Source: a virus
Reading direction: 5' to 3' (one strand)
Virus record (IMG/VR): IMGVR_UViG_3300037189_022715
Coordinates: 1-26,508 of that record
Length of the DNA stretch: 26,508 nt
The notes below the pieces were generated by a model. It had not been told where the DNA came from and searched no databases. It was given only the letters and a program-made list of their open reading frames with translations. Below, in pieces: positions 941 to 24,538 of the stretch. Both the position numbers and the translations under genes were made by a program. Numbering within the stretch: position 1 is the first letter of the stretch; the number at the start of each line of letters is the position of its first letter.

Positions 941-1384
941 TTATTGATTTGATCCCGTTCCTCCACCTCTTTCATCACTAAATCTAACACTTGACTTATC
1001 GATGTTTACATTAAATTCTCTGTCTCCCATTGATCTACCTAGAGCTCTTTGGTTTTTACTAGCAATTACTGAATCCTGCTTTCCGGCACGATCCATTGAA
1101 CTTCTCATTACCTGGTCTAGCGACTGATCCTTTATCTTCTTTTTCCAATCACTATGGAAGATCATGTTCATTGCTCGAGTAATATCAACCTCTTGAACAT
1201 TGCCATCATACCGGTTTGGGTTTCTTGCAGCTTTTTCGTTTGCTAGTTCCCTAGCTATTGCCATAATCGAAGTATAAAGTCCACCCAGTGCACCTTGTAC
1301 CATGCCTTTAAAATTAGTTGGATACACCACTTCCTTAGTAGATTCATTGATAAATTGATGATATGTTTTTATATTTCTTTCCAT
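941..1384 (-). CDS. Putative capsid-internal protein with T4-like capsid-targeting N-terminus
   Basis: A 147-residue protein. Residues 5-14 (IKTYHQFINE) are very close to the leader of T4 internal proteins (KTYQEFIAE type), which the prohead protease cuts after the Glu; here the cut would follow E14. The body is basic and helical, followed by a Gly/Ser-rich tail (GGGTGSNQ). No domain is recognised. Its ATG overlaps the stop of the upstream gene by 1 nt (TAATG), indicating translational coupling in a late operon. Inferred role: packaged or head-associated protein of unknown activity. Confidence 0.6.
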   Translation of the reverse strand: MERNIKTYHQFINESTKEVVYPTNFKGMVQGALGGLYTSIMAIARELANEKAARNPNRYDGNVQEVDITRAMNMIFHSDWKKKIKDQSLDQVMRSSMDRAGKQDSVIASKNQRALGRSMGDREFNVNIDKSSVRFSDERGGGTGSNQ

Positions 1385-1710
1385 TATGCTGTAGGTGCGG
1401 CCGGTGTTGCTGGTGCTGTTGGTGCAGGTTGATTTGCAGCAGCAGTCTTTTGTGCAGTTTGACTCTTAGTAACGGCAATGTCATACGCAGCCTGTATGTC
1501 CAAAACTTTTTTATCTTGGGCAGCTTTTTGTAAATTTATTTGATTCTGTAAAGTTTTCTCCTTTTGCAAAGTGTTATATTGAGTTAAAAGTGCAGGATCA
1601 GTAGGTACACCTTCCTCTTTAATCATTTGAGGATTCGCACCAGCTGATATGTCATCAGACACCTTTTTTTCAGCATTTTGAAAGCCCTTAAAACTTTTTA
1701 CGTAAGCCAT
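1384..1710 (-). CDS. Small Ala/Pro-rich, coiled-coil late protein
   Basis: 108 residues. The N-terminus (YVKSFKGFQNAE) is a degenerate form of the leader found on neighbouring late proteins. Residues about 40-85 are Gln/Lys/Ala-rich and predicted by eye to form a coiled coil; the last 20 residues are Pro/Ala/Thr repeats (PAPTAPATPAAPTA). No known domain. The start lies about 17 nt downstream of a late-promoter motif (ATAAATAA on the minus strand at 1728-1735). Likely a minor virion or assembly protein, but nothing in the sequence gives a function. Confidence 0.55.
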   Translation of the reverse strand: MAYVKSFKGFQNAEKKVSDDISAGANPQMIKEEGVPTDPALLTQYNTLQKEKTLQNQINLQKAAQDKKVLDIQAAYDIAVTKSQTAQKTAAANQPAPTAPATPAAPTA

Positions 1711-1727
1711 TTTAATTTGCTTTTTTA

Positions 1728-1735
1728 TTATTTAT
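1728..1735 (-). promoter_or_regulatory. Late-promoter motif (ATAAATAA), overlapping upstream stop codon
   Basis: Minus-strand ATAAATAA preceding the gene that starts at 1710. It overlaps the last codons and stop of the gene at 1728-2003, so it is an internal promoter of the operon. Confidence 0.55.
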
Positions 1736-2003
1736 TTGTAAATTTTCGAGTAGTCTCGACAAATTCCTGGTATGATAAAACCTTAGTCTTTTTCTCCATT
1801 CTAGGATTAGATCCGAATGCGCTGCTTGCACTTCTTCCTGCAAGGAACGGAGAATTATTCCAATGAGTTGGAGTGGTCCCAGATGATCCCGAATAGAACA
1901 TCATTGCATTTGCACGCTTAGTATCGGGCTGCATGATTCGTTCAGCAGGATCTGGCTCCATCATTATCGCGCCAAAGCCTTCAACTAGTCTCTTTAGCCT
2001 CAT
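1728..2003 (-). CDS. Small late protein with leader-like motifs at both ends
   Basis: 91 residues. It starts MRLKRLVEGFG, parallel to MRIKRLYEADD of the upstream gene, so both may carry a short hydrophobic-x-Glu cleavage site at residue 8. Near the C-terminus, residues 75-83 (LSYQEFVET) again resemble the T4 KTYQEF(I/V)xE leader. The centre is Ser/Gly/Asn-rich and probably disordered. The gene begins 1 nt after the upstream gene ends (2005). Function unknown; a head-packaged or protease-processed peptide is inferred from the motif only. Confidence 0.5.
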   Translation of the reverse strand: MRLKRLVEGFGAIMMEPDPAERIMQPDTKRANAMMFYSGSSGTTPTHWNNSPFLAGRSASSAFGSNPRMEKKTKVLSYQEFVETTRKFTNK

Positions 2004-2004
2004 C

Positions 2005-2448
2005 TTATGCTTGTGGAAAGTCTAACTCTTGTGCAGGCTGATCTAGTGAAAATTCAGGAGCTTGCGGTTCCATTTGTTTTGAGAAGTTAACGTCAGTATC
2101 ATCTGCAGTAATGTCTCCAGTCTCTTCAGGAGCTTCACCAGTAGTTTGGTTAAGGAGCTCTTCAGTATTTGACTCGATAAATTGTCTAAGTCCCATACAA
2201 ATAAGAGGATTGATTGTATCACAACGATCAAGCAGTTCTTGCACAGTTAGAGTCATTACATCAGGTTGAGGCAATGCAAGCTGCTCCTGTTCTGGTTCAT
2301 TTTGAAAGTCAAAATCCGGCATCATCTCAGCTGGAGATTGAACTGGAGTAGGTGGAGCCATTTGTGGCATCTCTTGAGGAAGTGGCATTTGGCCATTCAT
2401 TGGTAGCTGTTGAACATCATCCGCCTCATAAAGTCTCTTAATACGCAT
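2005..2448 (-). CDS. Acidic Pro/Gln/Met-rich late protein
   Basis: 147 residues, strongly acidic, with Pro/Met/Gln-rich low-complexity sequence at residues 14-65 and an acidic tail. A short helical patch (about 66-100, LTVQELLDRCDTINPLICMG) is the only region that looks folded. The start MRIKRLYE|A resembles a prohead-protease site. A late-promoter motif lies at 2472-2479, 24 nt before the ATG. Unknown function; composition is reminiscent of scaffold or internal phage proteins, which is inference. Confidence 0.55.
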   Translation of the reverse strand: MRIKRLYEADDVQQLPMNGQMPLPQEMPQMAPPTPVQSPAEMMPDFDFQNEPEQEQLALPQPDVMTLTVQELLDRCDTINPLICMGLRQFIESNTEELLNQTTGEAPEETGDITADDTDVNFSKQMEPQAPEFSLDQPAQELDFPQA

Positions 2449-2471
2449 AATTTAAAGTTTATTTTATAGTG

Positions 2472-2479
2472 TTATTTAT
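2472..2479 (-). promoter_or_regulatory. Late-promoter motif (ATAAATAA)
   Basis: Minus-strand ATAAATAA, 24 nt upstream of the ATG at 2448. It is one of a set of identical octamers that sit at similar distances before late genes in this window and resembles the T4 late promoter core TATAAATA. Confidence 0.6.
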
Positions 2480-2505
2480 TTGGAAACCTAATCGTCGTTT
2501 TAAGA

Positions 2506-2511
2506 TATAAT
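2506..2511 (+). promoter_or_regulatory. Early promoter -10 box (TATAAT)
   Basis: TATAAT 5 nt before the ATG at 2517. The usual 7-nt distance to the start of transcription puts +1 at about the start codon, implying a leaderless mRNA. No convincing -35 box. Confidence 0.4.
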
Positions 2512-3505: not shown

Positions 3506-4078
3506 TTACATATTGCATCCGCAAGAATATCCATATTCATTTGAAATAGGAACTTCTCCGCACTCTTCGCAAGTATCATCATCTTCTCCACAATCTTCAC
3601 ACTCATCATCTGGCATATAATCGCTTTCATCAAAAAGGTTTGGATAATCTCCATGATCTTCATTGATAAATTGAGCGAATCCCTTTACTAACGTAACACT
3701 CTCTTCTACTTTCTTTTTAGGATTTGCACCAGCTTCAGGATTTCCTTCTTCTGTCTCGTCCTCATCTTCTTCTTCCTCGTCAGCTTCTCCTTCTTCTTCC
3801 TCTGGAGATTCTTCATCTTCTTGGGGAGCATTCATATCTTTAGTATTATTGGCAGAAAATGCCGGAGATCCTTCCTCTCCAGGTTTAGCTGGAGTAGCTT
3901 CATAGTTACCAGCAACTGGTCTATTTGGTCCTATTTGAGGTTGATCGTATGTTTCTTGGTCAAAGCCTTCTTCGAAATTAGCGGCAGCGTTTTTAATATC
4001 GTCTACGCTAGCTGGTTCAGTACTTCCGTTAGAATATTTATCAGAAAATTCTAAAAAATTTAAAACTCTACCTGGCAT
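3506..4078 (-). CDS. Acidic late protein with internal cleavage-like site and Cys-rich tail
   Basis: 190 residues. Residues 1-65 are mixed, 66-125 are low-complexity Glu/Asp/Pro (runs such as EEEEDEDETEEG), residues 131-140 read VKGFAQFINE, the same peptide that opens other late proteins, and residues 141-190 contain six cysteines (C160, C163, C170, C173, C186, C188) in C-x2-C pairs suggesting zinc binding. Cleavage after E140 would release a 50-residue Cys-rich peptide. The protein also starts with a related pattern (RVLNFLEF). A late promoter lies at 4097-4104. Confidence 0.6.
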   Translation of the reverse strand: MPGRVLNFLEFSDKYSNGSTEPASVDDIKNAAANFEEGFDQETYDQPQIGPNRPVAGNYEATPAKPGEEGSPAFSANNTKDMNAPQEDEESPEEEEGEADEEEEDEDETEEGNPEAGANPKKKVEESVTLVKGFAQFINEDHGDYPNLFDESDYMPDDECEDCGEDDDTCEECGEVPISNEYGYSCGCNM

Positions 4079-5056: not shown

Positions 5057-5860
5057 TTACATTTTATATGCTTCTTTAAATGATGTGTATCCATTCGTAA
5101 ATCTTCTCCAGTCAAGTTCTTTTTCATAAGATACTCCTTCGTCAATTAGGAATTTAACTAAATCCATTGCATTTTTTCGATCTGCTGCAAGTAGTGGCAT
5201 TCTTCCGCTTTCAAACATTTGAACAGATCCTTCATTAGTCGTAAATCCTTCAATTACGACTGTGCCCCAATCAGAATCCTTACCTACTATTTTAAAGTTT
5301 GAACCAGATTTTTGTCTAAGCTCAAGATTAGTAACTGATAAGTAAACTTCGTCTCTTTCATATCCACTGGTTGGCATACCTACTAATTTAACCTCAGTCA
5401 CTTGATTTGTCCCATATTGCTTACCGTGAGCAGATACTCGATCAGCAAATAAATCCATTTTTCTTCCTCGTAAATTAGTTTCGATTTCTCTCCACTTTTT
5501 ACCTGAGACTTCGTTTATATAACCTTCAAAAGTTTTAACCATCATATCATCTTCTCCAAGTGGACCAAGGTTAAACGAATTCACGATTTCTCTATTTGCA
5601 GGAATACCTACACTATTCTTTAAAAAGTTATAAACTTCTTGTACATCATCTGCAGATGATGCAATATGATCAACTGCCCATTCATGGCCACCCTTTAGGA
5701 TTTCATCAATTTGAGCATGATCCATTTGTACAAGCTCGTCAATCATTCTTTTTAGAGTTTCAAGGTTTCCAAAAAACATATAATTTAGGTCAGATTCACG
5801 GTTTTTCATACACCTATTAGATGTTCCTTCACATCCACATGAACATTCATTAATTCTCAT
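5057..5860 (-). CDS. Late protein with Cys-rich start and internal cleavage-like site
   Basis: 267 residues that look like two modules. Residues 1-105 start with MRINE then four cysteines (C6, C8, C10, C17) and a helical domain (NLETLKRMIDELVQMDHAQI). Residues 108-117 read VKTFEGYINE, the leader peptide seen at the start of other late proteins, and residues 118-267 form a second, beta-rich module (VYLSVTNLELRQ, TVVIEGF). Cleavage at E117 would separate them, or the gene may be a fusion of two genes that kept the second leader. The upstream gene ends 7 nt before its ATG. No enzyme motif seen. Confidence 0.6.
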   Translation of the reverse strand: MRINECSCGCEGTSNRCMKNRESDLNYMFFGNLETLKRMIDELVQMDHAQIDEILKGGHEWAVDHIASSADDVQEVYNFLKNSVGIPANREIVNSFNLGPLGEDDMMVKTFEGYINEVSGKKWREIETNLRGRKMDLFADRVSAHGKQYGTNQVTEVKLVGMPTSGYERDEVYLSVTNLELRQKSGSNFKIVGKDSDWGTVVIEGFTTNEGSVQMFESGRMPLLAADRKNAMDLVKFLIDEGVSYEKELDWRRFTNGYTSFKEAYKM

Positions 5861-5867: not shown

Positions 5868-6626
5868 TTATTTTTTAATTACACCCTTAGCAATTAAGAT
5901 ATCCTTTTTTGTAACAAGGCCGTCTCCGCTCATATCTGGAAAGCCTTTATCTTTTTTAGGCTTCTTCTTTATCTTAGTATCTTCTTTAGCTACTTTAGCT
6001 TTAGCCATTTGTTTCTTACCCTCATTAATAAATTGATTAAAGCTCATAATTCCTCTAGACTCATTCGGCATTTCACCGACGACTGCAGTTGGAGCAACTA
6101 CTCCGCTCTCAATCTGCTCAGGAGAAGCTGGAACAACCGTCTCTTTAGTTGATGTATCTAATTCTACTGATTTAATAAATCTAACTGTAATATCAGGAAT
6201 CTCAATTCCGTCTCCACCGGTTCCTTTCAATACTTGTGTAACATTACCTAGCTTAATTCCTTCTACTATATCACCAGTGATTGAATCATCTAGATTAAAT
6301 ACTAGTGCTTCTGCATCGTTTTTAGATGTATCGTTTTTAGTATTTAAGATGATCAGCTTAATATCTTTAGATTTAGTTTCATTTGTTTTATCTTTCCACT
6401 TAGCATCCTCTTTAGATACTGACTCGCCGGTCTCAAGCGCATCCATATCCTTCATAGTTAGTGTGACCTCTAGGATATTTTCTTTCGCTAGGAGTTCAAA
6501 GTCTTCTAATTTATCAGTAGGTAATGCTTCAGGCAAACTTCCAGGTGTCCCCATCTCTTCTGGATCAAGTGGCATGCCCATCTGTTCAGCTTCGTAAATT
6601 TTCGTAAAGTTAAAATATTTATGCAT
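5868..6626 (-). CDS. Late protein with internal cleavage-like site and EF-hand-like loop
   Basis: 252 residues. The N-terminus (FNFTKIYEAEQ) carries a hydrophobic-x-Glu site at E12. Residues 45-165 form a beta-rich domain. Residues 194-202 (MSFNQFINE) repeat the capsid-leader peptide, followed by a Lys-rich linker (KIKKKPKKDK) and residues 231-242 DMSGDGLVTKKD, whose spacing (D1, S3, D5, G6, V8, D12) fits a calcium-binding EF-hand/dockerin-like loop. Cleavage after E202 would free a basic 50-residue peptide with the calcium-binding loop. A late promoter sits at 6645-6652. Confidence 0.6.
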   Translation of the reverse strand: MHKYFNFTKIYEAEQMGMPLDPEEMGTPGSLPEALPTDKLEDFELLAKENILEVTLTMKDMDALETGESVSKEDAKWKDKTNETKSKDIKLIILNTKNDTSKNDAEALVFNLDDSITGDIVEGIKLGNVTQVLKGTGGDGIEIPDITVRFIKSVELDTSTKETVVPASPEQIESGVVAPTAVVGEMPNESRGIMSFNQFINEGKKQMAKAKVAKEDTKIKKKPKKDKGFPDMSGDGLVTKKDILIAKGVIKK

Positions 6627-6644: not shown

Positions 6645-6652
6645 TTATTTAT
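6645..6652 (-). promoter_or_regulatory. Late-promoter motif (ATAAATAA)
   Basis: Minus-strand ATAAATAA 19 nt before the ATG at 6626. It overlaps the stop codon of the upstream gene 6649-7389. Confidence 0.6.
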
Positions 6653-7389
6653 TCTGAATATATCTTTGAATATAGTTCTGATAGTAATTCAATGATTTCT
6701 TCAATTGTTCCATCTCGGCGTAACTCTTTAAAGACTAGATTTTCTACCGCAAATTCACCGCCTTTTGCAAGACCCTCTTTACGATCATTCATGATCTTCT
6801 TTTTAATACGATCTAGATAATCATACATGTTTTGAGCTTCATCACCCTCAGCAGAGCGAGCCTTTGCCTTCACCATCTTGATTTCAGTCTTAATGACTCT
6901 CATCTTTTCATCAATATCCTTCTGATCAAAGTTAGGTTCACTCCAATTAGGAACAATAATCCACCTATCTCTAAGTATTGAAAAGAGACCTGATGCAACG
7001 TGTTGTTCGTCCTTGTGTTGAACATAGCACTCAACATCGTGTCCTCTAAGAATTACAGGATGGCGTAAGTTCCACATAAATCGCTGACCATCTAGTGCTT
7101 TTCTAACTAGCTCTAGGTTTCCATCAATCTGTGCAAAATCAATAATTATATGTACGTCTAGGTCTGAGTCCTTATTCCAATTAAAATTAGCGATTGAACC
7201 AGTCAATTGGATATCCATAATTGGAACTTCTAATTTTAGTGAAGACCAGAAATCGTCAGCTACTGCAAGCAATTTTGCTCGTATTGCCTGGTCCATCTTA
7301 CCCTCTTCCCAGAACTTAGGACAAAGGTCACGATTGTATTCTACCTTTTCGTTGATCCATTGATTAAAAGTATTTGCTTTATGCTTCAA
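6649..7389 (-). CDS. Nucleotidyltransferase (Pol beta superfamily) with capsid-targeting-like N-terminus
   Basis: 246 residues. Residues 63-81 contain TGS (63-65) followed by D76-L-D78, the G-S-x(n)-D-x-D signature of Pol-beta-type nucleotidyltransferases, with a candidate third acidic residue at E120 (DVECYV). Such enzymes transfer a nucleoside monophosphate to RNA, protein or small molecules; the substrate cannot be read here. Residues 6-14 (NTFNQWINE) match the T4-like capsid leader, so the enzyme is probably packaged in the head, trimmed after E14 and delivered with the DNA. A late promoter at 7410-7417 fits virion timing. Confidence 0.75.
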   Translation of the reverse strand: MKHKANTFNQWINEKVEYNRDLCPKFWEEGKMDQAIRAKLLAVADDFWSSLKLEVPIMDIQLTGSIANFNWNKDSDLDVHIIIDFAQIDGNLELVRKALDGQRFMWNLRHPVILRGHDVECYVQHKDEQHVASGLFSILRDRWIIVPNWSEPNFDQKDIDEKMRVIKTEIKMVKAKARSAEGDEAQNMYDYLDRIKKKIMNDRKEGLAKGGEFAVENLVFKELRRDGTIEEIIELLSELYSKIYSE

Positions 7390-13528: not shown

Positions 13529-13536
13529 TTATTTAT
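13529..13536 (-). promoter_or_regulatory. Late-promoter motif (ATAAATAA)
   Basis: Minus-strand ATAAATAA 18 nt before the ATG at 13511. Confidence 0.6.
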
Positions 13537-16486: not shown

Positions 16487-18352
16487 ATGTTAGAAACAGT
16501 TTTAAATTATGCATGGATGGCGATTCCACTTATCGCTTTAGTGTTTTACAAGTTTACACTAAGAGTATTTTTCGGTATGGTAATTATTCCAGAGGACAAG
16601 ATTGGATTAGTTACTAAGAAATTCGTTCTATTTGGAGCAAATCGATCCTTACCTGATGGTAAGATTATTGCACTTAATGGTGAACCTGGATTTCAAGCAG
16701 ACACCCTAGCTCCTGGACTCTATTGGTTCTATTGGGTATGGCAATTCTCAATTGAACAGTCACCATTAACTATTATTCCACAAGGAAAGATTGGACTCTT
16801 ATCTGCTAAAGACGGTGCACAACTACCAACTGGTGCTATCCTAGCTCGACACGTAGAGTGTGATAATTATCAAGACACCCATGCATTCTTAACAAATGGT
16901 GGTCAACGAGGTAAGCAAGTAGGTTACTTAAATAATGGTGTATATCGTATCAATCCATTCCTATTCGATTTAGCAATGACTGATATTACTTATATCGAAG
17001 ATGGTCAAGTCGGAGTAATGACTGCACTTGATGGTGTTCCACTAGATCAAAGCGCGATCGCTGGAAAAGTAATCGAAGGTCATAATAATTTCCAAGATTT
17101 CGATTCATTCTTATTAAATAACGGTCAACGTGGTCTACAGACTCAAGTAGTTCAAGCGGGTAATTACTCTCTTAACCCATGGGCAGTACAGGTCGAAAAG
17201 GTTGCCATGACTCAAATTCCTATTGGACACGTAGGTGTTGTAATATCCTATGTTGGAGATGAAGGAGTAGACACTACTGGTGAAACCTTTAAACATGGTA
17301 ATATCGTGAAGAAAGGTGAAAAGGGTGTATGTATCACTCCATTAGATCCTGGAAAGTACGCAATCAATCCATATACACATAAGATTGAAGTTGTACCAAC
17401 AACTAATCTAGTACTTAACTGGGCAAATGCACGAAACGAGTCTCATCAATTAGACAAGGGATTAAGCACAATCACAGTACGTTCTAAAGACGGTTTCCCA
17501 TTCAACCTAGATGTATCTCAAATCATACATATTCCTGCAACAGAAGCACCGAAAGTAATTGCACGATTCGGATCAATGCAAAACTTGGTTTCTCAAGTAT
17601 TAGAGCCAACTATCGGTAACTACTTTAGAAACTCGGCACAGGACTCTGACGTTATTGCATTCTTAACTACTCGTCAAGCTCGACAAAATGCAGCTAAAGA
17701 TTCTATCAGTAGAGTATTAGAAGAGTACAACGTACATGCAGTAGATACACTTATCGGTGATATTACTCCACCTGAATCCTTGATGAAAACTCTTACTGAT
17801 CGTAAGATTGCTCAAGAAGAGGAGGTAACGTTTGAGACTCAACGTAAAGCACAAGATCAACGTAAGACCCTGGAATCTGCAAAAGCATTGGCTGACATGC
17901 AAGGAAAAATGGTTGCTGCTCAACAATCAGTAGAGATCTCACAACGTGAAGCTGAAGCATCTGTTAAGAGATCTGAAGGTGAAGCTAAAGCACTAGAATT
18001 AAAAGCTGGAGCTCAAGCCAAAGCTAAGAAGATGATGGCAGAAGCTGATGCAGCTCAAATCAAACTTACTGGTGATGCTGAAGCAAGTAAAATCGCAGCA
18101 ATCGGTAAGTCTACTGCGGAAGCCTATGAGAAACAGGTAAAAGCAATGGGAGCAGATAACTTCGGTAAATTAAAGGTAACTGAAATGATTGGTACTAACG
18201 GAATCAAAATTATCCCAGAGATCTTGATCTCAGGTAATGATGGAAACGGTGCAATCAATGGATTACTTGGAATGGAAATGTTAAAGCAAATCCAGGACAA
18301 GAAACAAGTAATCACAGAGGTTACAGCAAAGGTGACTCCTCCGACTGAGTAA
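16487..18352 (+). CDS. Flotillin-like SPFH/band-7 membrane protein with four vault-like repeats
   Basis: 621 residues. Residues about 8-32 are one hydrophobic membrane segment. Residues 33-303 contain four similar units, each opening with (I/V)-x-P/E-x-G/D-x-(I/V)-G (at 33-41, 95-104, 168-177, 242-251) and ending in G-x-Y-x-(I/L)-N-P in units 2-4 (150-157, 225-231, 289-295). Residues 308-425 form the SPFH domain (NARNESHQL, FPFNLDVSQI). Residues 436-555 are an Ala/Lys/Glu-rich coiled coil (AKALADMQGK, EAKALELKAG), followed by a short tail. SPFH proteins build membrane-bound ring or cage assemblies. It is a long gene for a phage accessory function and is followed by a terminator. Confidence 0.85.
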   Translation: MLETVLNYAWMAIPLIALVFYKFTLRVFFGMVIIPEDKIGLVTKKFVLFGANRSLPDGKIIALNGEPGFQADTLAPGLYWFYWVWQFSIEQSPLTIIPQGKIGLLSAKDGAQLPTGAILARHVECDNYQDTHAFLTNGGQRGKQVGYLNNGVYRINPFLFDLAMTDITYIEDGQVGVMTALDGVPLDQSAIAGKVIEGHNNFQDFDSFLLNNGQRGLQTQVVQAGNYSLNPWAVQVEKVAMTQIPIGHVGVVISYVGDEGVDTTGETFKHGNIVKKGEKGVCITPLDPGKYAINPYTHKIEVVPTTNLVLNWANARNESHQLDKGLSTITVRSKDGFPFNLDVSQIIHIPATEAPKVIARFGSMQNLVSQVLEPTIGNYFRNSAQDSDVIAFLTTRQARQNAAKDSISRVLEEYNVHAVDTLIGDITPPESLMKTLTDRKIAQEEEVTFETQRKAQDQRKTLESAKALADMQGKMVAAQQSVEISQREAEASVKRSEGEAKALELKAGAQAKAKKMMAEADAAQIKLTGDAEASKIAAIGKSTAEAYEKQVKAMGADNFGKLKVTEMIGTNGIKIIPEILISGNDGNGAINGLLGMEMLKQIQDKKQVITEVTAKVTPPTE

Positions 18353-18373
18353 TCAGTCACTCATATACCGACC

Positions 18374-18401
18374 GAGGGCTTGCTAACCGCAAGCTCTTTT
18401 T
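18374..18401 (+). terminator. Intrinsic terminator after the SPFH gene
   Basis: GAGGGCTTGC-TAACC-GCAAGCTC followed by TTTTT forms a 6-8 bp hairpin (two bulged G) with a T run, 22 nt after the SPFH stop codon and 20 nt before the next gene. A weaker outer pairing CCGA/TCGG flanks it. Confidence 0.75.
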
Positions 18402-18420
18402 CGGGTTAAGAAGCATTAAT

Positions 18421-18630
18421 ATGACATACGAATCAATTGATATTACTCTTGAACAGGCTCAATTCATCAAGAATCTTCGAGTAGTCGAAGGCTATAGTTG
18501 GAGAGCAGTGGCTAGAGATTATTCTGAAAAGTACATGAAAGAGAAAACCACTAACCAAATTTTAGGTATGAATCTATGTACATCGGCTATGTGTCTATTA
18601 GGTGAAACTGTAGAAGACGATTGGAATTAA
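18421..18630 (+). CDS. Small hypothetical early protein
   Basis: 69 residues, helical. Residues 9-35 (LEQAQFIKNLRVVEGYSWRAVARDY) have the look of a helix-turn-helix DNA-binding segment, though the match is weak. First gene of a four-gene early unit 18421-19661. Function unknown; a regulator is a guess. Confidence 0.5.
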   Translation: MTYESIDITLEQAQFIKNLRVVEGYSWRAVARDYSEKYMKEKTTNQILGMNLCTSAMCLLGETVEDDWN

Positions 18631-18635
18631 TAAAA

Positions 18636-19043
18636 ATGAAAATGAAAGTATACTGTAAATCTTGTGAAAAGCCTACATCGCATCGTCAGAAGCTGCACGA
18701 TATTGTATGTAACAAATGTGATATCTGTAACTATCCTATCTTCCTTCAGAGGATCGGCGATGGAAGAAGTAATATTGGAAAAAGATTGATATGGGTCGAA
18801 TGGTCAGAAGACGGTCGAGGCAAAGCTTTACACGGTGAACCTCAAGTAGGATTCAGTCTATGTTTAGATCCATATACAATTAATCCAGATATTGAAGGTA
18901 TACCTTCTGCTTCCGGTTTTGGTTGGATGACTACTGGTGTTACTGAAATCTTAGAAGATAAAGTGTCTAAAGAATATCATAAGATTCACTTCAAGACCAA
19001 GAATTCTGAATATGTTTTACACTCAACAACCATTGAACCATGA
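18636..19043 (+). CDS. Zinc-ribbon-like hypothetical protein
   Basis: 135 residues from the ATG at 18636. C7-x2-C10 and C25-x2-C28-x2-C31 suggest a zinc-binding knuckle at the N-terminus. The rest (WVEWSEDGRGKALHGE, SGFGWMTTGVTEI) is beta-rich and unrecognised. It overlaps the next gene by 4 nt. Could bind nucleic acid or protein; no function assigned. Confidence 0.6.
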   Translation: MKMKVYCKSCEKPTSHRQKLHDIVCNKCDICNYPIFLQRIGDGRSNIGKRLIWVEWSEDGRGKALHGEPQVGFSLCLDPYTINPDIEGIPSASGFGWMTTGVTEILEDKVSKEYHKIHFKTKNSEYVLHSTTIEP

Positions 19044-19240
19044 CAAACTGGAAAGAAATACCAAGCACAGCACAGTGCTTTCAATTAGGAGACGAACCTG
19101 AATTAATCCATGTAATTAAGACTGGATTTAGAGACATGTACATGGTAGTGCATGAAGATGCATATGAATACTCAATTGGAAAAGTTGAATTTGGAACCAA
19201 GAAGGATATTGAAGTAAAATATAAAATAACAATTAATTAG
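19040..19240 (+). CDS. Small hypothetical early protein
   Basis: 66 residues, beta-rich (YMVVHEDAYEYSIG, DIEVKYKITIN). Starts by a 4-nt overlap with the previous gene and ends 1 nt before the next. No motif recognised. Confidence 0.55.
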   Translation: MTNWKEIPSTAQCFQLGDEPELIHVIKTGFRDMYMVVHEDAYEYSIGKVEFGTKKDIEVKYKITIN

Positions 19241-19241
19241 A

Positions 19242-19661
19242 ATGGAAGATCGACAAATTATCCTAAATCAAATCAGGACGCCAGACGGTACCGTTTTGAA
19301 ATCTATGCATCGTCATGATTACGTGACCTACACTGATAAGAATGGTCTTGAATATATGGTAGATGGAGGTAGTGAATACTTACGACGTACTGTTCATGAA
19401 TCAGCACCATATGAAGAGATAAGTGTTTATGAAGATGCCCCATTCGAAGAGATTCGTGAAGCTTTCCATAGAGGCGGCCGAGGTAAAGACGGTACTGAGC
19501 CTCTTACTTGGGTACCGATGTCAAAAATGAGCGATGAGTGGTTACTTGCATGTATTGAATACAACGAAGATCGCGGAATGAGTGAATCTTTCGCAAATGA
19601 AATGTACAAGAAGGAGTTAATGCATCGTCTTTACGATCCGGCTCTTTCAATTAAAGATTAA
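19242..19661 (+). CDS. Conserved phage hypothetical protein (RTPDG...RGKDG type)
   Basis: 139 residues. RTPDGTVLKSMHRHDYVTYT, MVDGGSEYLRR, APFEEIREAF, RGGRGKDG and MSDEWL are strings I recognise from a family of uncharacterised proteins in several T4-like phages. The function is not established. Its stop codon overlaps the convergent stop of the lysozyme-like gene (19658) by 3 nt, with no terminator between. Confidence 0.65.
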   Translation: MEDRQIILNQIRTPDGTVLKSMHRHDYVTYTDKNGLEYMVDGGSEYLRRTVHESAPYEEISVYEDAPFEEIREAFHRGGRGKDGTEPLTWVPMSKMSDEWLLACIEYNEDRGMSESFANEMYKKELMHRLYDPALSIKD

Positions 19662-20233
19662 GGCTGTGGATCAAACGGAGCGTCTATCTCAGCTTGAGTT
19701 ACATCAGGTGCCTGGAATTTAACGATTTCAGGCATTTTTAGTTTTTGATAAAGATCATATAGTTCTCTAGCACCAGCTATTCGATTTGGGTGGCGACGAT
19801 CAGATTCTGCACAACGCTCATATCGAGCAGCTACTTGATATGCTGCGTCTTCAACCGTTGCAGCTTTTTCAATTGCTGGCAATGATGATTTCTCAGCAGT
19901 CTGAGTAAGCTCATAATTAAGTAATTTTAATTGAGAGTCTACTGTAAACTGAGCTGCTCCAGTTATTCCAAGTTTAGCTAGTCTACTAAATCGATCTGAT
20001 CCCCACTGAACAAGTCCTTTAAATGATCCACCGACCGCTTTAGGATTGAATTTTGATTCTCTAAACATGTTACCAGCAAAAGCGGCAGCCGTTTTTTCTG
20101 AAAAACCATATTCAGAAATGAGCTTACTCATTATCTCAATACCTTTATCTCTTATGCTAGCATAAGCCGCTCCATCATCAAAATAGGACTCATTTATTTG
20201 AATCCACTCATTTAGTGGTAAAATATGTTTCAT
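19658..20233 (-). CDS. Phage lysozyme-like protein with capsid-targeting-like N-terminus
   Basis: 191 residues from the ATG at 20233 (a longer frame from 20305 would overlap the upstream gene by 71 nt and lacks a leader). Residues 6-15 (PLNEWIQINE) match the capsid leader, with cleavage predicted after E15. Residues 31-95 (GFSEKTAAAFAGNMFRESKFNP, VGGSFKGLVQW) match the phage tail-lysozyme/muramidase-like domain; E59 is the likely catalytic Glu. It would cut peptidoglycan during DNA entry, as a virion-carried enzyme, rather than in lysis. A head location is inferred only from the leader; tail or baseplate is possible. The upstream gene ends 1 nt before this start. Confidence 0.75.
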   Translation of the reverse strand: MKHILPLNEWIQINESYFDDGAAYASIRDKGIEIMSKLISEYGFSEKTAAAFAGNMFRESKFNPKAVGGSFKGLVQWGSDRFSRLAKLGITGAAQFTVDSQLKLLNYELTQTAEKSSLPAIEKAATVEDAAYQVAARYERCAESDRRHPNRIAGARELYDLYQKLKMPEIVKFQAPDVTQAEIDAPFDPQP

Positions 20234-20234: not shown

Positions 20235-21614
20235 TTAAAATAACCAGTTACCTGATGTTTTTTCTTTAGCTGATGAAGTCTTCTTAAATTCATTTTCAGT
20301 ATCATCCATCGATACTCCTAATAGACCTGCAATACTTACTTCAGGCGCTTTAATTTTACCAGTAACAATATATGCTGCGAACTTATCAATTGCACCATCT
20401 AGTGTATGCACAGAAATAATACTTGGAATAGATGCATAATTCCCAGCAACTGGTAATTCTCTTTTATATTTCTCAGGTTGAGCTTCTCTAAATCCAGTTT
20501 CAGGATCTGAACCCTCTTCATCTGGACTAAATTTTTTCTTAGCTACACTATATACTGCAGTGTACGACATTCCTCGAGAGCTTGCCTCCTGATTTTCTTT
20601 TTCTAATTCAAATCCAGAAGTCTTAGCGTATGCACTTGGTGCTCCTTGTACTCTACCTCTACCTTCTTCAAAAAGCTCCTGTCTAAAATCTCTAAATTTT
20701 GAAAATAACCAAGTTTGGGTTCGACCTGCATCTGAACCTAGTGCAGATGCAACTTCATCAAATTCAGGATCATTTTCTCTAGAATAGGGTTGATTATCGA
20801 TTTGATTTATCATTCTCTCCTTGATTTCAGGTCTAGCTTTAGCTGCAATCTTTGCAAATCGATTAGCAAATACTCTTACAAAATCCCTTGATGTAGTTTC
20901 TCCTTTTGCTGCTGTTCGGGTTTCTCTAGTTGTTCTAGGCTCAGTCGCTGGAGTAACTGGTAAAACGTAAACATATAATGGTTTCTCTAGAGAAGGAGCG
21001 TATTTTTTCTCTCCTTGTCTACTCATTGCTCTAACGAATTCTTGGATCTTACCGTTCGTGTTTCCTCCTTTAGTATCATGAACACCTCTTAGTTGTGATC
21101 TATCTACACCACTAGTAGTCAACTCAGAATATCCATAATCAATTACCTTCTTTCTTTCTGGGTCCCATGCCATTACTGCATACTGTTCTCCAGTAGCACC
21201 CTTACTTGGTTGTTTATGGTATAGGAACATAAAGAAGTCAATCTCTTTGTTTACAATAAAGATTCTGATCTCACCAAATGGAATCGATTGTAGGTACCAT
21301 GCAAAATCAGTGTATTCGCTCTTAACCTCCTTGTCTTGGAATGGACTGCGATTAGACTTACGACCTCTTAACTTAATTGGTTCGGGAATCTCAACGTCCG
21401 GTGAAGGAATATAATACTTATATGACATAGGCACAGCTGCTCTAGATTTATAAGTGTGACCCATTTGAGGATAACGATCAGCGTAGTGTTCCTCTTTTGT
21501 ATGGATCGTTCGGATCATATCTTTTGGAAGACCTAATTGACTTAAATTCGAGTCTTCAAATATAAAAAATGACTCAAAAGTCGGTGCACAATAAATATCT
21601 CTTTTAGACATCAT
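20235..21614 (-). CDS. Large late protein, unknown function
   Basis: 459 residues starting MMSKRDIYCAPTFESFFIFED. Residues 12-20 (TFESFFIFE) resemble the leader of its neighbours, with a candidate cleavage after E20. The region 90-175 is beta-rich (FGEIRIFIVNKEIDFFMFL), residues 225-300 are Arg/Glu/Thr-rich and probably helical, and the end is a Ser/Thr/Lys tail. I do not recognise a domain. A late promoter lies directly upstream at 21628-21635, shared back-to-back with the divergent gene 21665. Probable virion or head-internal protein. Confidence 0.55.
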   Translation of the reverse strand: MMSKRDIYCAPTFESFFIFEDSNLSQLGLPKDMIRTIHTKEEHYADRYPQMGHTYKSRAAVPMSYKYYIPSPDVEIPEPIKLRGRKSNRSPFQDKEVKSEYTDFAWYLQSIPFGEIRIFIVNKEIDFFMFLYHKQPSKGATGEQYAVMAWDPERKKVIDYGYSELTTSGVDRSQLRGVHDTKGGNTNGKIQEFVRAMSRQGEKKYAPSLEKPLYVYVLPVTPATEPRTTRETRTAAKGETTSRDFVRVFANRFAKIAAKARPEIKERMINQIDNQPYSRENDPEFDEVASALGSDAGRTQTWLFSKFRDFRQELFEEGRGRVQGAPSAYAKTSGFELEKENQEASSRGMSYTAVYSVAKKKFSPDEEGSDPETGFREAQPEKYKRELPVAGNYASIPSIISVHTLDGAIDKFAAYIVTGKIKAPEVSIAGLLGVSMDDTENEFKKTSSAKEKTSGNWLF

Positions 21615-21664: not shown

Positions 21665-22879
21665 TTGATAAAGGATTTTCAAAGTTTCATAAATGAAGCA
21701 ATAACTTTAAAAAAGGAAGGGGGCGCTCATTATTTAGAGAGAGCAGACACTCGCCTTTCTCAACTTGAAATAATTGGATTCACTAATAGTAAAGGAGAAA
21801 AGGTTGAATCTACAAAATCAGATATCTCACAAGCTCAACAGTTTTTTAGAAAAGCTCTATCGAATATCGCTGACCCAAATAAAAGCAAGATATTTGCAGA
21901 TACAGATATTCAGCCAGGATATATTGGAATTATTCGATTAGGCAAACCAAAGGTCACTCTTTCAAATGGAGAAGAGGTGATGCCTATCTTTAGAGTATAT
22001 GAGAGAACTGATAAATCGACAGGTCAACAAGTCTTTCGTACCGGTACATGCTTTTGGTTATTTACGATAGGCTCGGAAGTATCAACTATTAAGTTATATG
22101 ATGTTGATGGAAATAGCAAGTCTGAAAAATCTTTCCTAATCAATAAGTCAATCGGCCATATGTTAGCAGATCGACAAGCTGAACTTGCTAAGATATCTAG
22201 AGTATTTTCCGTTAAGATGGAATCAACTGAAGACCTTGAAAAGCGACATAATATTGTTCTAACTCCAGGTGGAATATCAATAGTTCACTTAAACCTTGAG
22301 AATGCAAATATTAAGGATCAACTTGATGCTATTCTTAAAGACTCAACTTTTATTAAACAGGAGAAAATTCAATTGATTCCTAATCTAGATCGAGAGTCTT
22401 CATTTAGTCTTGAAGCAATTCCAAAACAGATGAACGTTACACCAGAAAAAGTATGGTTACTTGAGAAAAACGAGAAATTTAATACTTGGGGAGCAATGCC
22501 TATTCTACAATCAAAACAGATTAAAGGACTTACTGGTAATGAGATTCAAATTAAGCTTGGTAAAAAATGGTTACACTGGTTGGAAAAACCAATGTTTAAT
22601 ACTCCACTACAAATCGATAGAGTTATAAAAAAGGGTGATACTATAGTATTGGCTAAAGAGATCGGAAACGGTGATTGGTTAGTAAACACTGGTCTAATCA
22701 CTGATATTGCCACTGATTCTAGGTCAAGTGAATTTCCATACGTGAAAACCAATGGTTGGGATAGTTCAATCATTATTAATAAAGAGAATGCTGCAAAGAT
22801 ATTTGTTGATTCTAGACTAGTTAATGAGAGTCATAGAGCTCTAAGCTTTTCACAATGGCGATCGCTTAATCACCAATAA
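21665..22879 (+). CDS. Late protein with capsid-targeting-like N-terminus, TTG start
   Basis: 404 residues. No ATG exists before the leader; the frame starts at TTG 21665, and the first residues (MIKDFQSFINEAITL) match the capsid leader, so cleavage after E11 is predicted. The plus-strand late motif at 21639-21646 is the promoter. The body is beta-rich with repeated short strands; no domain recognised. Near the C-terminus (SHRALSFSQWRSLNHQ) another leader-like string occurs. The 3' end overlaps the convergent gene at 22866 by 14 nt. Confidence 0.65.
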   Translation: MIKDFQSFINEAITLKKEGGAHYLERADTRLSQLEIIGFTNSKGEKVESTKSDISQAQQFFRKALSNIADPNKSKIFADTDIQPGYIGIIRLGKPKVTLSNGEEVMPIFRVYERTDKSTGQQVFRTGTCFWLFTIGSEVSTIKLYDVDGNSKSEKSFLINKSIGHMLADRQAELAKISRVFSVKMESTEDLEKRHNIVLTPGGISIVHLNLENANIKDQLDAILKDSTFIKQEKIQLIPNLDRESSFSLEAIPKQMNVTPEKVWLLEKNEKFNTWGAMPILQSKQIKGLTGNEIQIKLGKKWLHWLEKPMFNTPLQIDRVIKKGDTIVLAKEIGNGDWLVNTGLITDIATDSRSSEFPYVKTNGWDSSIIINKENAAKIFVDSRLVNESHRALSFSQWRSLNHQ

Positions 22880-23300
22880 AGGATCTGATATCCTCGCCGT
22901 CTGGATTATCAAGCGTCCAACATGCATCACCAATTGAACTACTTGCACAGGCAATAGTATTATCCCTCTTTAGTTTTGCCCAAATCTTATCGACTACCGG
23001 ATTCTGACGGCGCCCTCTACCTGAGTAGAGATGACCAAGTTTCTCAATCAGTGCCCTGTATATTTTAGTAGCCAGACCCTTTCGCATAAGACCCTCATCT
23101 AATGTTATATGAGGTTGATATAAGTAATCATGAATCACCTGAAGGGTTAGTACTATTCCAGGATTAGGAATACTATCTCCAGGAAGAATGACTCCCAGAT
23201 TCATTAAGTTTCCTTCAGACTCTAGTTTTACAAACCTGATCCCTTTCCAATCTAATTCTTGATCAAAAAAATCAGCTCTTTCAAATATATGTTTTAACAC
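22866..23300 (-). CDS. Possible GNAT-like protein, GTG start
   Basis: 144 residues starting at GTG 23300 (the codon just upstream is a stop, so no earlier start is possible). The central part, HITLDEGLMRKGLATKIYRALI, has the R/K-x-G-L/I-A arrangement and helix of the GNAT acyl-CoA-binding motif A; the remainder (LYSGRGRRQNPVVDKIW) is unusual for a GNAT. The start MLKHIFERADF gives a candidate E7 cleavage. A late promoter is at 23316-23323. Enzyme activity is uncertain; a structural GNAT-like protein is an alternative. Confidence 0.5.
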   Translation of the reverse strand: MLKHIFERADFFDQELDWKGIRFVKLESEGNLMNLGVILPGDSIPNPGIVLTLQVIHDYLYQPHITLDEGLMRKGLATKIYRALIEKLGHLYSGRGRRQNPVVDKIWAKLKRDNTIACASSSIGDACWTLDNPDGEDIRSFIGD

Positions 23301-23315
23301 TTAAAAATCTTTTAG

Positions 23316-23323
23316 TTATTTAT
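23316..23323 (-). promoter_or_regulatory. Late-promoter motif (ATAAATAA)
   Basis: Minus-strand ATAAATAA 16 nt before the GTG start at 23300. Confidence 0.6.
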
Positions 23324-23337
23324 TCTTAACAGATATT

Positions 23338-23366
23338 TTAAACCCTGTTGAAAAAACAAGTATAAT
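23338..23366 (+). promoter_or_regulatory. Early promoter of the structured RNA (TTAAAC-N17-TATAAT)
   Basis: TTAAAC at 23338-23343, 17-nt spacer and TATAAT at 23361-23366, predicting +1 near 23373. It matches the promoter pattern in front of the early genes at 8397 and 25903. Confidence 0.6.
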
Positions 23367-23372
23367 AGAATA

Positions 23373-23796
23373 GTTCTTTGAATATTGTATGAGCTGTAGG
23401 AATTGAGTATGATTAAGCAACCTTGTGTTCTCAAGGCGCTCTGTGACCGACGGTTCTACATTTGACTACTTACTGAATGTTGGCACAATGGAAACAATAG
23501 ATGCTACCAATCCTTGAGAGTCTTTAATTCTGATAAAGATTCAAATAGTTAGGGGGAACGGAATTGGGATTTTGGGGTAATACCGCGTCGAGCGACTGAC
23601 ATAAAAGGCCGAATCTTTATCTGAAATTGTTTACAGCCAATAGTATTCTGTGCGATGCATAGCATAGAGCCAACGGTAAGACGTCTAATTCTTCGAGTTG
23701 GTTTTAAGCCTAACTTTTATCCAACAAGATAAGATGTTCCAATTGGAAGTGGATAAAGTAGTTATGAAGGTCTCGGTGCGTCACCGAGACCTTTTT
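23373..23796 (+). ncRNA. Unassigned ~424-nt structured non-coding RNA
   Basis: No convincing coding frame spans the 519 nt between 23300 and 23820. The segment has a promoter at its 5' end and a terminator at its 3' end, and its sequence is rich in self-complementarity: GATAAAGATTC (23532-23542) with GAATCTTTATC (23611-23621), 11 bp perfect; TAACT+TTTATCCA (711-723) with TGGATAAA (750-757) and AGTTA (760-764), 13 bp with a 2-nt bulge; TCTCAAGG (429-436) with CCTTGAGA (512-519), 8 bp; CCAAC (670-674) with GTTGG (697-701); TTCC-AATT-GGAA (737-748). (Numbers are 23xxx.) The internal G-rich stretch AGGGGGAACGG is single-stranded in this model. I found no tmRNA, RNase P or 6S hallmarks. Function unknown. 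Confidence 0.7.
23767..23796 (+). terminator. Intrinsic terminator of the structured RNA
   Basis: AAGGTCTCGGTG-CGT-CACCGAGACCTT, a perfect 12-bp hairpin, followed by TTTTT. Very strong, ending the RNA 24 nt before the HAD gene start. Confidence 0.9.
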
Positions 23797-23819
23797 ATTT
23801 TTGTAAAATAGTAATAAAA

Positions 23820-24206
23820 ATGGATATATTAGTAGATTTTGATGGAACGTGTACTACACATGACTTTCCAAGAGTTGGTCAAGAAATTGGTGCACCTGAA
23901 GTATTAAGAGACTTAGTATTGGCAGGTAATCGGTTGATACTATTCACCATGCGCAGCGATAGCAGTCAAGGTAAATACTTACAGGATGCAATAATATGGT
24001 TTGACGAAAATGATATTCCTCTTTATGGAATTCAGGAAAATCCTACACAAAAGGCTTGGACAAGTTCACCAAAAGCATATGGTCAATTAATAATAGACGA
24101 TATTTGCTTGGGTATTCCTCTAATGGTTGATCCAAACTTATCGGACCGTCCCTTCGTTGATTGGCCTAAGTGTAGAGTCTTAATGGGAGATCTTGGAATC
24201 CTTTAA
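23820..24206 (+). CDS. HAD-superfamily phosphatase-like protein
   Basis: 128 residues. VDFDGTCTTHDF opens with the HAD motif I (D6-x-D8-G-T); LFTMRSD at 41-47 carries motif II (T/S); IIDDICLG (D93, D94) fits motif IV. Short HAD proteins with this layout remove phosphate from small substrates, sometimes nucleotides; the substrate is not indicated by the sequence. It starts 24 nt after the ncRNA terminator and its 3' end overlaps the convergent gene at 24203. Confidence 0.75.
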   Translation: MDILVDFDGTCTTHDFPRVGQEIGAPEVLRDLVLAGNRLILFTMRSDSSQGKYLQDAIIWFDENDIPLYGIQENPTQKAWTSSPKAYGQLIIDDICLGIPLMVDPNLSDRPFVDWPKCRVLMGDLGIL

Positions 24207-24538
24207 TCTCTAAACTTTCCAGGAAAGATTCTTCTTAAATCATGTCCGTGAGGAACATCCTTTGTTCTAATACCAAAGATCTTCTTTTCTGGTTTCATGC
24301 CAGGTTGACATGCATCTTCACCATTCCATTTGAATCCATTACGACATGCCCATCCTTTCATAAAAGGTATTTGTAAAAGTTGACCTGTTACAAAAGGAAA
24401 GATTATTCCTGTATTGTTGTCGATCTCCTCTATCTTTCCATGGCGAATAGTTAAAGTTATATCACGACCCATTCTAGAAGTCATGATAATCTCCTCTTCA
24501 CGCTGCCAGCTTTCAAATAATTGAATATATCTCTTCAT
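24203..24538 (-). CDS. Small late protein with leader-like N-terminus
   Basis: 111 residues. The start KRYIQLFESW fits the late-protein leader with cleavage after E9. The remainder has two cysteines near the middle (WACRNGFKWNGEDAC) and a Lys-rich end. No domain recognised. It begins 9 nt after the upstream gene ends, so they form one transcript from the promoter at 24893. Confidence 0.55.
   Translation of the reverse strand: MKRYIQLFESWQREEEIIMTSRMGRDITLTIRHGKIEEIDNNTGIIFPFVTGQLLQIPFMKGWACRNGFKWNGEDACQPGMKPEKKIFGIRTKDVPHGHDLRRIFPGKFRD

Follow-up and report, generated by a model that had tools for sequence, protein, structure and literature searches.

Tagged genes of the window

Several otherwise unrelated proteins encoded in the window, the whole 26.5-kb stretch of viral DNA analysed here, begin with the same short leader, or tag, as is typical of a T4-type capsid-targeting sequence. 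On the minus strand, the tag MERNIKTYHQFINE (1343–1384) stands at the N-terminus of the gene 941–1384 (147 aa), with the loose pattern in 37 of 39 distinct orthologues, MKHKANTFNQWINE (7348–7389) at that of 6649–7389, which has a TTG start and retains the pattern in 11 of 14 orthologues, and MSNVLNFKNWLNE (13473–13511) at that of 12852–13511. The product of 6649–7389 is nucleotidyltransferase-like (phrog_36119, E = 1.1e-33; Pfam E = 0.0017, below the Pfam cut-off). The plus strand carries MIKDFQSFINE (21665–21697) on the gene 21665–22879 (404 aa, TTG start) and the variant MNMYIKPFEPINE (7469–7507) on 7469–8356 (295 aa), where KPFEPINE lacks the second aromatic residue; in the sample of its orthologues displayed, the sequence reads FEPINE, LSFEQITE, ISFDELLE or LTFSQIINE. 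A second form of the tag, [FYL]xx[WFY]xx[ILV][NST]E, is represented by MKHILPLNEWIQINE (20189–20233, minus) on the gene 19658–20233, whose N-terminus LNEWIQINE precedes a Phage_lysozyme2 domain (Pfam E = 1.3e-26). The gene 941–1384 adjoins a gene for a neck (head–tail adaptor) protein (200–934, minus; phrog_211, E = 1.7e-8), which served as the query for finding relatives.

The initial annotation had grouped these six peptides under the pattern F-x-x-(F/W/Y)-(I/L)-N-E. All six are present, but the literal pattern fits only those at 6649, 12852 and 21665; the peptide at 941 fits if Tyr is admitted for the first Phe, and those at 7469 and 19658 do not fit. A further variant, TFESFFIFE (21555–21581, minus), lies near the N-terminus of the gene 20235–21614 (459 aa), in which F13, E14, F19 and E20 are invariant across 8 sequences. 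Among the shorter forms, MRLKRLVE (1980–2003, minus) of the gene 1728–2003 represents the same element, since its orthologues have FxxY[LI]xE in the aligned place, whereas MRIKRLYE of 2005–2448 (2425–2448, minus), MHKYFNFTKIYE of 5868–6626 (6591–6626, minus; the KIYE form) and MKRYIQLFE of 24203–24538 (24512–24538, minus) are too short to count alone; their Glu is held at that place in most orthologues of the sample displayed. MLKHIFE of 22866–23300 (23280–23300, minus) is a weak variant.

The motif also occurs inside proteins, all on the minus strand: FAQFINE at residues 134–140 of the acidic protein 3506–4078 (3659–3679; 29/31 orthologues), FEGYINE at residues 94–100 of the frame 5057–5809 (5510–5530; 13/16), FNQFINE at residues 196–202 of 5868–6626 (6021–6041; 12/13), where it is flanked by an acidic part of net charge −19 and a basic tail of net charge +11, and a less regular YQEFVE near the C-terminus of 1728–2003 (1755–1772; 14/34). 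These internal copies, the second form and the scaffold repeats described below were missing from the earlier list, and the expanded tag set and the protease-fused repeat scaffold go beyond it. The metabolic genes 9962, 14670 and 16487 carry neither the strict nor the loose tag.

A late-promoter-like ATAAATA lies 25 nt upstream of gene 12852 (13530–13536, minus), and similar sites precede 1384, 2005, 3506, 5868, 6649, 7469, 20235, 21665, 22866 and 24548, so that 11 of the 45 window genes have one, nine of them on our own list of 14 genes with a tag, variant or internal motif. Such sites accompany the tag in the window (5/7 tagged versus 6/38 other genes, with the site chosen post hoc) and in the relative G002, where ATAAATAA precedes 6/9 versus 46/203 genes, but not in G003 (1/4 versus 43/223) or LR756501 (1/35 versus 44/947), where the association is not significant; TATAAATA with one mismatch gave no significant association in four genomes. 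The expectation that early genes would have fewer tags is borne out only in part: with strand as a stand-in for timing, the six examples are distributed 4/18 on the minus versus 2/27 on the plus strand (p = 0.20), and adding the variants and internal copies, from a list that we made ourselves, gives 12/18 versus 2/27.

N-terminal excess and conserved positions

The strict pattern was defined as [FY]xx[FYW][ILV]NE starting within the first 20 residues of a predicted protein, with genes predicted by our own hexamer-based caller. It occurs in 17 of 484 proteins from the window (4/45) and two long relatives, G002 (176 kb; 9/212) and G003 (207 kb; 4/227), against 0.11 matches for the whole set with shuffled N-termini (maximum 1 in 200 shuffles); the observation is real. 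None of six altered versions of the pattern (one reversed, one swapped, two shifted and two with K or D in place of E) matched any of the same 484 proteins. In LR756501, the 735-kb phage, there are 35 strict carriers among 982 proteins, versus 0.27 and 0.33 expected in two shuffle runs. The loose pattern, whose false positives include a DnaB helicase, yields 68 carriers in LR756501, where chance predicts about 9, and 15 and 12 in two partial genomes close to the window, where it predicts about 1.5 apiece. Long tagged genomes hold 4–35 strict and 12–68 loose carriers, whereas T4 has five loose matches among 257 proteins, two of them being IPII and IPIII; strict carriers number 0 in T4, Acj61, S-WAM1, PTm1 and Lak-A2.

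The second form is likewise enriched in G002 (5/212; 0.27 by shuffling), G003 (4/227; 0.13) and LR756501 (8/982; 1.13); LR756504 and LR756500 show no such enrichment (2 each versus about 1 expected). In an unbiased search of gapped triplets, aromatic-x-x-aromatic-x-x-E came top in G003 and took second place in LR756501, LR756500 and G002; it fell outside the top 12 in Lak-A2, PTm1 and also LR756504, whose top N-terminal pattern is K-x-aromatic-x-x-aromatic with Glu absent at the tag position. A DNA probe for the tag matched 58 IMG/VR stretches, and 54 tagged ORFs of at least 40 aa fell into 29 clusters by protein body (27 without two doubtful pairs).

Conservation is concentrated on few positions. 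Among the 39 orthologues of the protein encoded at 941, the first aromatic is kept in 38 (as Tyr), the second in 38 (as Phe or Tyr), the aliphatic residue in 37 and Glu in 38, while the positions between vary. The heptad as a whole is not unusually conserved: in six proteins its mean identity ranks 75/141, 169/240, 49/184, 41/244, 4/246 and 30/86 among the segments compared, and only the four positions stand out. In T4 IPIII, whose sequence has Y4, F7, I8 and E10, targeting is reported to depend mainly on residues 4 and 7 and processing on residues 8 and 10, with a processing specificity of L/I-x-E (PMC9026906). At the level of sequence, the conserved tag positions coincide with those to which genetic work on T4 has ascribed head targeting and gp21 cleavage. 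The [LI]xE site follows directly on the two aromatic positions, with Glu in 38/39 (941) and 30/31 (3506) orthologues and Val also frequent for L/I; the window variants at 7469, 1728, 2005 and 24203 lack the pair of aromatics. In 43 of 77 strict tags the position after Glu (P1′) is taken by Ala, Ser or Gly.

The T4 major capsid protein, with a reported propeptide of 65 residues (PMC9026906), carries FGSFLTE at 59–65. An alignment of the capsid proteins of four relatives, inspected by eye, shows short candidates such as WLAE and LFE in the N-terminal part but no complete heptad there.

A scaffold–protease fusion in the relatives

A gp21-type protease, looked for as a companion of the tag, is encoded in relatives, the gene being absent from the 26.5-kb window itself. 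Peptidase_S77 was found on 7 of 14 contigs of relatives and in 7/7 named relatives, three of them above the Pfam cut-off (8/8 records and 4/8 with T4 included); G002 and G003 score above the cut-off, and LR756501, LR756502, LR756504 and LR745206 below it. The putative catalytic columns H81, S136/S137 and D158, assigned by eye against T4 gp21 with the H/S/D triad taken from PMC5694885, are invariant across 19 sequences. As in the gp21/gp22 region of T4, the protease gene adjoins a gp23-type capsid gene.

Unlike in T4, where the gp22 scaffold and gp21 protease are separate genes, the protease of the relatives is fused to the scaffold in one chain of about 600–800 aa. In the scaffold part, [FY]xx[FYH][ILVM]xE recurs as many as 13 times in a 14-residue register. 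Such repeats occur in 5/5 tag-rich genomes, although LR756500, tag-rich as it is, has only 3 motifs in register, versus 0/5 tag-poor genomes, and they are also present in 5/5 fusions on tag-probe contigs, one of which an earlier search had already found. No such tandem repeats were seen in gp22 of T4 and Acj61 or in the S-WAM1 scaffold. The repeats favour Tyr-Tyr and Ala before Glu, whereas Phe and Asn are frequent in the tags. When a profile is made from the repeats alone, it finds tagged N-termini only moderately, with 9 in the top 30 versus 2.3 expected, column-permuted controls reaching 7. The structure model of the fusion is of low confidence (pLDDT 51).

Probable capsid targeting and its alternatives

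The T4-like reading of the initial annotation is supported by conservation on the T4 targeting and processing residues together with the gp21-type protease of the relatives. We consider it very probable that the shared N-terminus is a capsid-targeting sequence of the T4 type, as part of the following course of events. Through its two aromatics, the tag would dock onto the scaffold inside the assembling head, and docked proteins would be built into the prohead core. The S77 protease, which we infer to be encoded by the window's own phage as well, would then cut after the Glu of [ILV]xE, which would set the tagged proteins free within the head and dismantle the scaffold. These proteins, among them the cell-wall hydrolase and nucleotide enzymes, would travel with the DNA and probably be injected. 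Since [FY]xx[FYH][ILV]xE is also found in the 14-residue repeats, the tag may function as one scaffold-repeat unit on its own.

This last step has a substantial competitor. The tag may be a capsid-targeting sequence whose likeness to the repeats reflects convergence under one protease specificity rather than docking by mimicry, a possibility we rate somewhat below even; T4 has tags without repeats, and the favoured residues differ between tags and repeats. Yet the T4 specificity L/I-x-E does not require the two aromatics that tags and repeats share, and tag-rich genomes and repeats co-occur, in phages that are related and hence not independent. Less probable, and in our view unlikely, is a signal for a target outside the prohead, such as a chaperone, a factor in tail or baseplate assembly, or a phage compartment inside the cell, with a Glu that marks no cleavage site. 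The tail-type lysozyme domain of one tagged protein and the related N-termini without a clean [ILV]xE would suit such a signal, as would the fact that cleavage at the tag is read from sequence; it leaves unexplained the match to the residues of the T4 signal, the recurrence of the heptad in a protease-fused scaffold and the preference for Ala, Ser or Gly after Glu.

Recent gene duplication as the sole source of the likeness is very improbable. Some tagged genes are paralogues: two of 66 aligned LR756501 proteins are 52% identical, and 62965, 64066 and 65144 look similar by eye. But all that the 66 (out of 68, picked by motif) have in common is xxxxYxxFxNE close to the N-terminus, and the many body clusters argue against it. 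Moreover, the tag of 12852–13511 recurs on an unrelated body in G002 (gene 16122) with 13/14 residues and 34/42 nucleotides identical, the difference lying in synonymous codons. The least credible of these explanations is a nucleotide-level signal, for instance one that enhances the translation of late mRNAs on ribosomes modified by the phage. The motif does sit at the very start of genes, and possibly related published phages carry a gene for ribosomal protein S21 (PMC9723584); however, it is also conserved inside proteins, and synonymous codons within the tag vary much as they do elsewhere in the genome, so that selection seems to act on the peptide.

Capsid targeting is the preferred reading, and known systems resemble it to differing degrees. 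The capsid-targeting sequence of T4 IPII and IPIII is likewise N-terminal, of about 10–20 residues, with aromatics at 4 and 7, an aliphatic residue at 8 and Glu at 10 (YQEFIAE; PMC9026906), borne by unrelated bodies and accompanied by an S77 protease, which T4 itself encodes and which is seen here in relatives. Unlike T4 tags, those described here often have Asn before Glu, include enzymes among their carriers and have internal copies and a protease-fused scaffold with repeats of the motif. In SPN3US and phiKZ (gp245), a gp21-related protease cuts head proteins after Glu and head proteins are ejected, as proposed here, but cleavage follows AxE and most propeptides span 111–254 residues; a gp22 counterpart in giant phages was called unconfirmed in 2017 (PMC10052503, PMC5694885). 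The bS21-encoding Bacteroidetes phages of PMC9723584 come from freshwater, like the phage of the window, and by description rather than phylogeny possibly belong to the same broad group; the available text of that source describes neither tag nor scaffold repeat.

More tentatively, and at slightly under even likelihood, a lineage of huge Bacteroidetes-type phages may have a head scaffold made of serial 14-residue units for docking and cutting, in one chain with the protease, single units having spread onto dozens of unrelated genes. Any protein gaining a unit would be loaded and released in the head, so that some of the largest known phages would deliver tens of proteins, enzymes included, with their DNA, a modular arsenal that would parallel bacterial secretion systems in its logic. 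To the question of what a capsid-targeting sequence binds, the repeat scaffold fused to the protease offers a testable answer. Few huge phages are in culture, and the proteins they inject are therefore mostly uncharted; should this reading of the tag hold, candidates could be listed from sequence alone. T4 IPI is reported to inhibit a restriction system, and IPIII to be needed for infecting one E. coli strain (PMC9391042). Most tagged proteins belong to no known family and are candidates for roles in early host takeover or anti-defence.

A common N-terminal peptide and its conservation

The initial annotation had proposed that otherwise unrelated proteins of this freshwater phage open with a common peptide, and the counts bear this out. 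The strict form of the tag, [FY]xx[FYW][ILV]NE starting within the first 20 residues, was found in 4 of the 45 window proteins, 9 of 212 in G002 (176 kb) and 4 of 227 in G003 (207 kb), the two long relatives used for comparison. Shuffled N-termini gave an expectation of 0.11 over all 484 proteins, and six altered patterns, employed as controls, gave 0 among the same 484; gene calls for the window and its relatives were computational. Of its six examples, genes 6649, 12852 and 21665 fit the pattern as originally worded, and gene 941 does so with Tyr for the first Phe. Gene 7469 lacks the second aromatic residue, and gene 19658 carries an alternative form of the tag, [FYL]xx[WFY]xx[ILV][NST]E, which occurs in 5/212 proteins of G002, 4/227 of G003 and 8/982 of the relative LR756501 (0.27, 0.13 and 1.13 by shuffling) and was not enriched in two other relatives, LR756504 and LR756500.

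Bare [LI]xE is weakly enriched at N-termini (159 against 116 expected in the 484 proteins), so the short variants RLVE (1728), RLYE (2005), KIYE (5868) and LFE (24203) are not countable alone. The relaxed, loose form of the tag takes in chance matches, such as a DnaB helicase at 630708-632054 of LR756501; with Lys or Asp in place of Glu, it yields 8 and 5 matches in LR756501, 13 and 8 in LR756504, and 13 and 6 in LR756500. Many N-termini of LR756504 (loci L191-L210 and L243-L250) are of the type MKYLK[LTK][FY]EN[FY], with Glu between both aromatics, resembling the start of window gene 24203, MKRYIQLFESW.

Among 39 distinct orthologues of the 941 protein, each of the two aromatics is conserved in 38, the aliphatic residue in 37 and Glu in 38, while intervening residues vary; the loose pattern is present in 37 of the 39. 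The heptad as a whole is not unusually conserved (window rank 75/141 in 941, 169/240 in 6649 and 4/246 in 5868), and the constraint falls on four of its positions. The short form KRLVE of 1728 aligns with FxxY[LI]xE of its orthologues. Internal copies persist in orthologues of 3506 (29/31), 5057 (13/16) and 5868 (12/13), that of 1728 being less well kept (14/34). Since the tag codons approximate the genome's usual synonymous choice, selection seems, judging from the sequences, to act on the peptide rather than on RNA. Two of the proteins with an internal copy, 3506-4078 and 5868-6626, are acidic, the latter with a basic tail after the copy; they are like the T4 core precursors gp67 and gp68 in charge only.

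The window record is a fragment of 26,508 bases, and no close match to its first 24,000 bases was found among 50,697 phage records. Its neck-like protein (200-934) has 64 related loci in IMG/VR and matches 29 phage records, the best 20 of the 29 (26-33% identity) belonging to uncultured phages of 462-735 kb and to Lak phages. A head gene cluster of similar kind is described in PMC9723584 for freshwater Bacteroidetes phages, which are candidate kin of the window phage. No description of the tag or of a repeat scaffold in huge phages appeared in the titles and abstract openings of the literature matches listed.

The fused prohead protease and its repeats

G002 and G003 carry T4-type head genes, namely a Gp23 capsid protein and Peptidase_S77, the gp21-type prohead protease. 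S77 was detected in 7 of 14 contigs of relatives and in all eight named records, T4 included (4/8 exceeding the Pfam cut-off); it was not found within the 26.5-kb window. In G002 and G003, the protease makes up the N-terminal region of a longer protein (658-659 aa), whose middle has a 14-residue period, roughly x-Y-x-x-Y-[LIV]-x-E-x-[LIV]-[ND]-x-[SN], with eight motif copies in register in each. Other fusions of protease and scaffold contain 13 such copies (LR756501), 11 (LR756504, LR756502 and LR745206 each) or 3 (LR756500), and none was found in those of Lak-A2 and PTm1. Two of the seven fusions of one repeat count (loci L080 and L082) were translated from a late Met and therefore show only four motifs. 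Across 19 S77-scaffold proteins, no variation occurs in the columns of the putative catalytic His, Ser and Asp.

The tag and the scaffold repeat have four key positions in common, the repeat favouring Tyr and Ala and the tags often Phe and Asn. Used as a blind tag finder, a profile built solely from the repeats had moderate success: tagged N-termini made up 9 of its 30 best matches, where 2.3 would be expected and permuted controls reached as many as 7. Across genomes, all five with repeats are rich in tags, and none of the five lacking them is. Strict and loose matches number 35 and 68 of 982 proteins in LR756501 (loose expectation from shuffles, 9.1), 13 and 28 of 713 in LR756504, covered from 40 to 600 kb of its 636 kb (6.8), 12 and 26 of 659 in LR756500 (5.5), 9 and 15 of 212 in G002 (1.5), and 4 and 12 of 227 in G003 (1.6). 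The corresponding values are 0 and 0 of 575 in Lak-A2 (3.4), 0 and 5 of 298 in PTm1 (1.9), 0 and 5 of 257 in T4 (1.5), 0 and 1 of 226 in Acj61 (1.2), and 0 and 4 of 191 in S-WAM1 (1.1). These co-occurrences are not independent events, because the phages are related; PTm1 and Lak-A2 were chosen as relatives, with a negative outcome. T4 has tags without repeats, so repeats are not needed for tags.

A DNA probe for the tag retrieved 58 IMG/VR stretches. Fifteen of the larger contigs hit, all possibly fragments, were inspected, with the earlier S77-negative contig of locus L353 omitted. Five have an S77 gene, one of them previously reached through the fusion itself, and all five fusions bear repeats (7-11 in-register copies).

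By eye, the scaffold part of the PTm1 fusion (17853-19547) is repetitive in a different way, around LSEGIEKWI; such fusions may therefore often have tandem repeats even without the heptad. A second S77-like stretch, below cut-off, lies in a 181-aa open frame at 11386-11787 of LR756501, whose fused protease is at about 74 kb, and a second weak match was seen at 154951-155127 of LR756500. Structure predictions were too poor to use for both the protease-scaffold fusion (pLDDT 51, pTM 0.30) and window protein 20235 (pLDDT 51, pTM 0.45).

Likeness to the T4 capsid-targeting signal

According to PMC9026906, the first 10 residues of T4 IPIII suffice for head incorporation, targeting acting mainly via residues 4 and 7 and processing via 8 and 10; gp21 cleaves after L/I-x-E, and the major capsid propeptide has 65 residues. 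The T4 record reads Y4, F7, I8 and E10 for IPIII, corresponding to the positions conserved in the tag, and FGSFLTE at 59-65 of the major capsid protein. Of the 77 strict tags collected from six sets, 43 have Ala, Ser or Gly directly after Glu. Gene 941 also matches the PHROG 'internal head protein', though below threshold (E 0.07).

The shared N-terminus is thus very probably a T4-type capsid-targeting sequence. Our confidence is slightly lowered by two results: the six original examples are not significantly biased by strand (4/18 minus, 2/27 plus, p 0.20), and no full heptad was seen by eye in the N-terminal part of four relatives' capsid proteins aligned to that of T4. The simplest account would make the tag a single scaffold-repeat unit that has become detached. 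Its aromatics would dock the protein bearing it within the prohead core, cleavage after its Glu would be the work of the fused protease, and the freed cargo would leave with the DNA, being packaged and injected. Docking on the scaffold would fit the co-purification of T4 internal proteins with scaffold gp22, as reported in the same review (PMC9026906).

In the T4 record AF158101, small open frames at 18966-19130 and 114210-114440 start with MKTFKEFIKED and MLLEFKQFLYEA, respectively, and look capsid-targeting-like; the latter lies in frame inside uvsW as annotated.

Tagged proteins and their late-promoter-like sites

Many tagged proteins belong to no known family. Among those assigned, 19658 is a phage lysozyme (Pfam E 1.3e-26), G002 contributes a NUDIX hydrolase and a peptidoglycan-binding protein, and 6649 is nucleotidyltransferase-like, below the Pfam cut-off and in a PHROG of unknown function. 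Among ten scanned probe hits, one encodes a CHAP protein, and matches to nucleotidase and AAA families were weak; ten tagged LR756501 proteins gave one weak Pfam match. The loose LR756501 set (66/68 scanned) includes a methyltransferase and an aldolase, not assigned to single tags. The 54 probe ORFs of at least 40 aa (four shorter ones excluded) fall into 29 body clusters, a number that includes two doubtful pairs and drops to 27 without them. The pairs are L302 and L334, each part of a longer frame that stays open upstream for 609 and 494 residues, respectively, and the chance-like L326 and L352. Window protein 12852 and G002 16122, the latter encoded between the genes that correspond in G002 to 21665 and 6649, agree at 13 of 14 tag residues, and their BLAST alignment ends at residue 14; the tag was therefore retained and the cargo exchanged. 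No other match to 12852 was found in the loci searched.

The late-promoter-like ATAAATA lies 13-31 nt 5' of the start in 11 of 45 window genes, nine of which are among the 14 that we ourselves had listed as having a tag, a variant or an internal motif. It precedes 5/7 strict-motif genes against 6/38 others (one-sided p 0.006), a post hoc result, since the test was devised once the window upstreams had been viewed. G002 offers a fairer test; there, ATAAATAA precedes 6/9 strict-motif genes against 46/203 others (p 0.008). G003 and LR756501 showed no such association, and TATAAATA with one mismatch allowed was not significant (p 0.12 in the window, 0.056 in G002, 1 in G003, 0.055 in LR756501). 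Late control of tagged genes is plausible in this clade and unproven in general. Between the divergent tag-type genes 20235-21614 and 21665-22879, the short intergenic region has ATAAATA sites in both orientations.

G002 also encodes a 1,813 aa protein (119791-125232) with the N-terminus MSNRDINYVKLLTED and no Pfam match. In the window, 16487-18352 (621 aa) resembles by eye an SPFH/flotillin-type membrane protein, without a match in the NCBIfam scan. Genes for a ribose-phosphate diphosphokinase-like protein (9962-10855, below NCBIfam cut-offs), a by-eye macro-domain-like protein (11705-12220) and a nicotinate phosphoribosyltransferase family member (14670-16202, above cut-off) form one block. 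Some phages use an NAD-rebuilding pathway against NAD-depleting defences, of which we take the 9962 and 14670 genes to be reminiscent.
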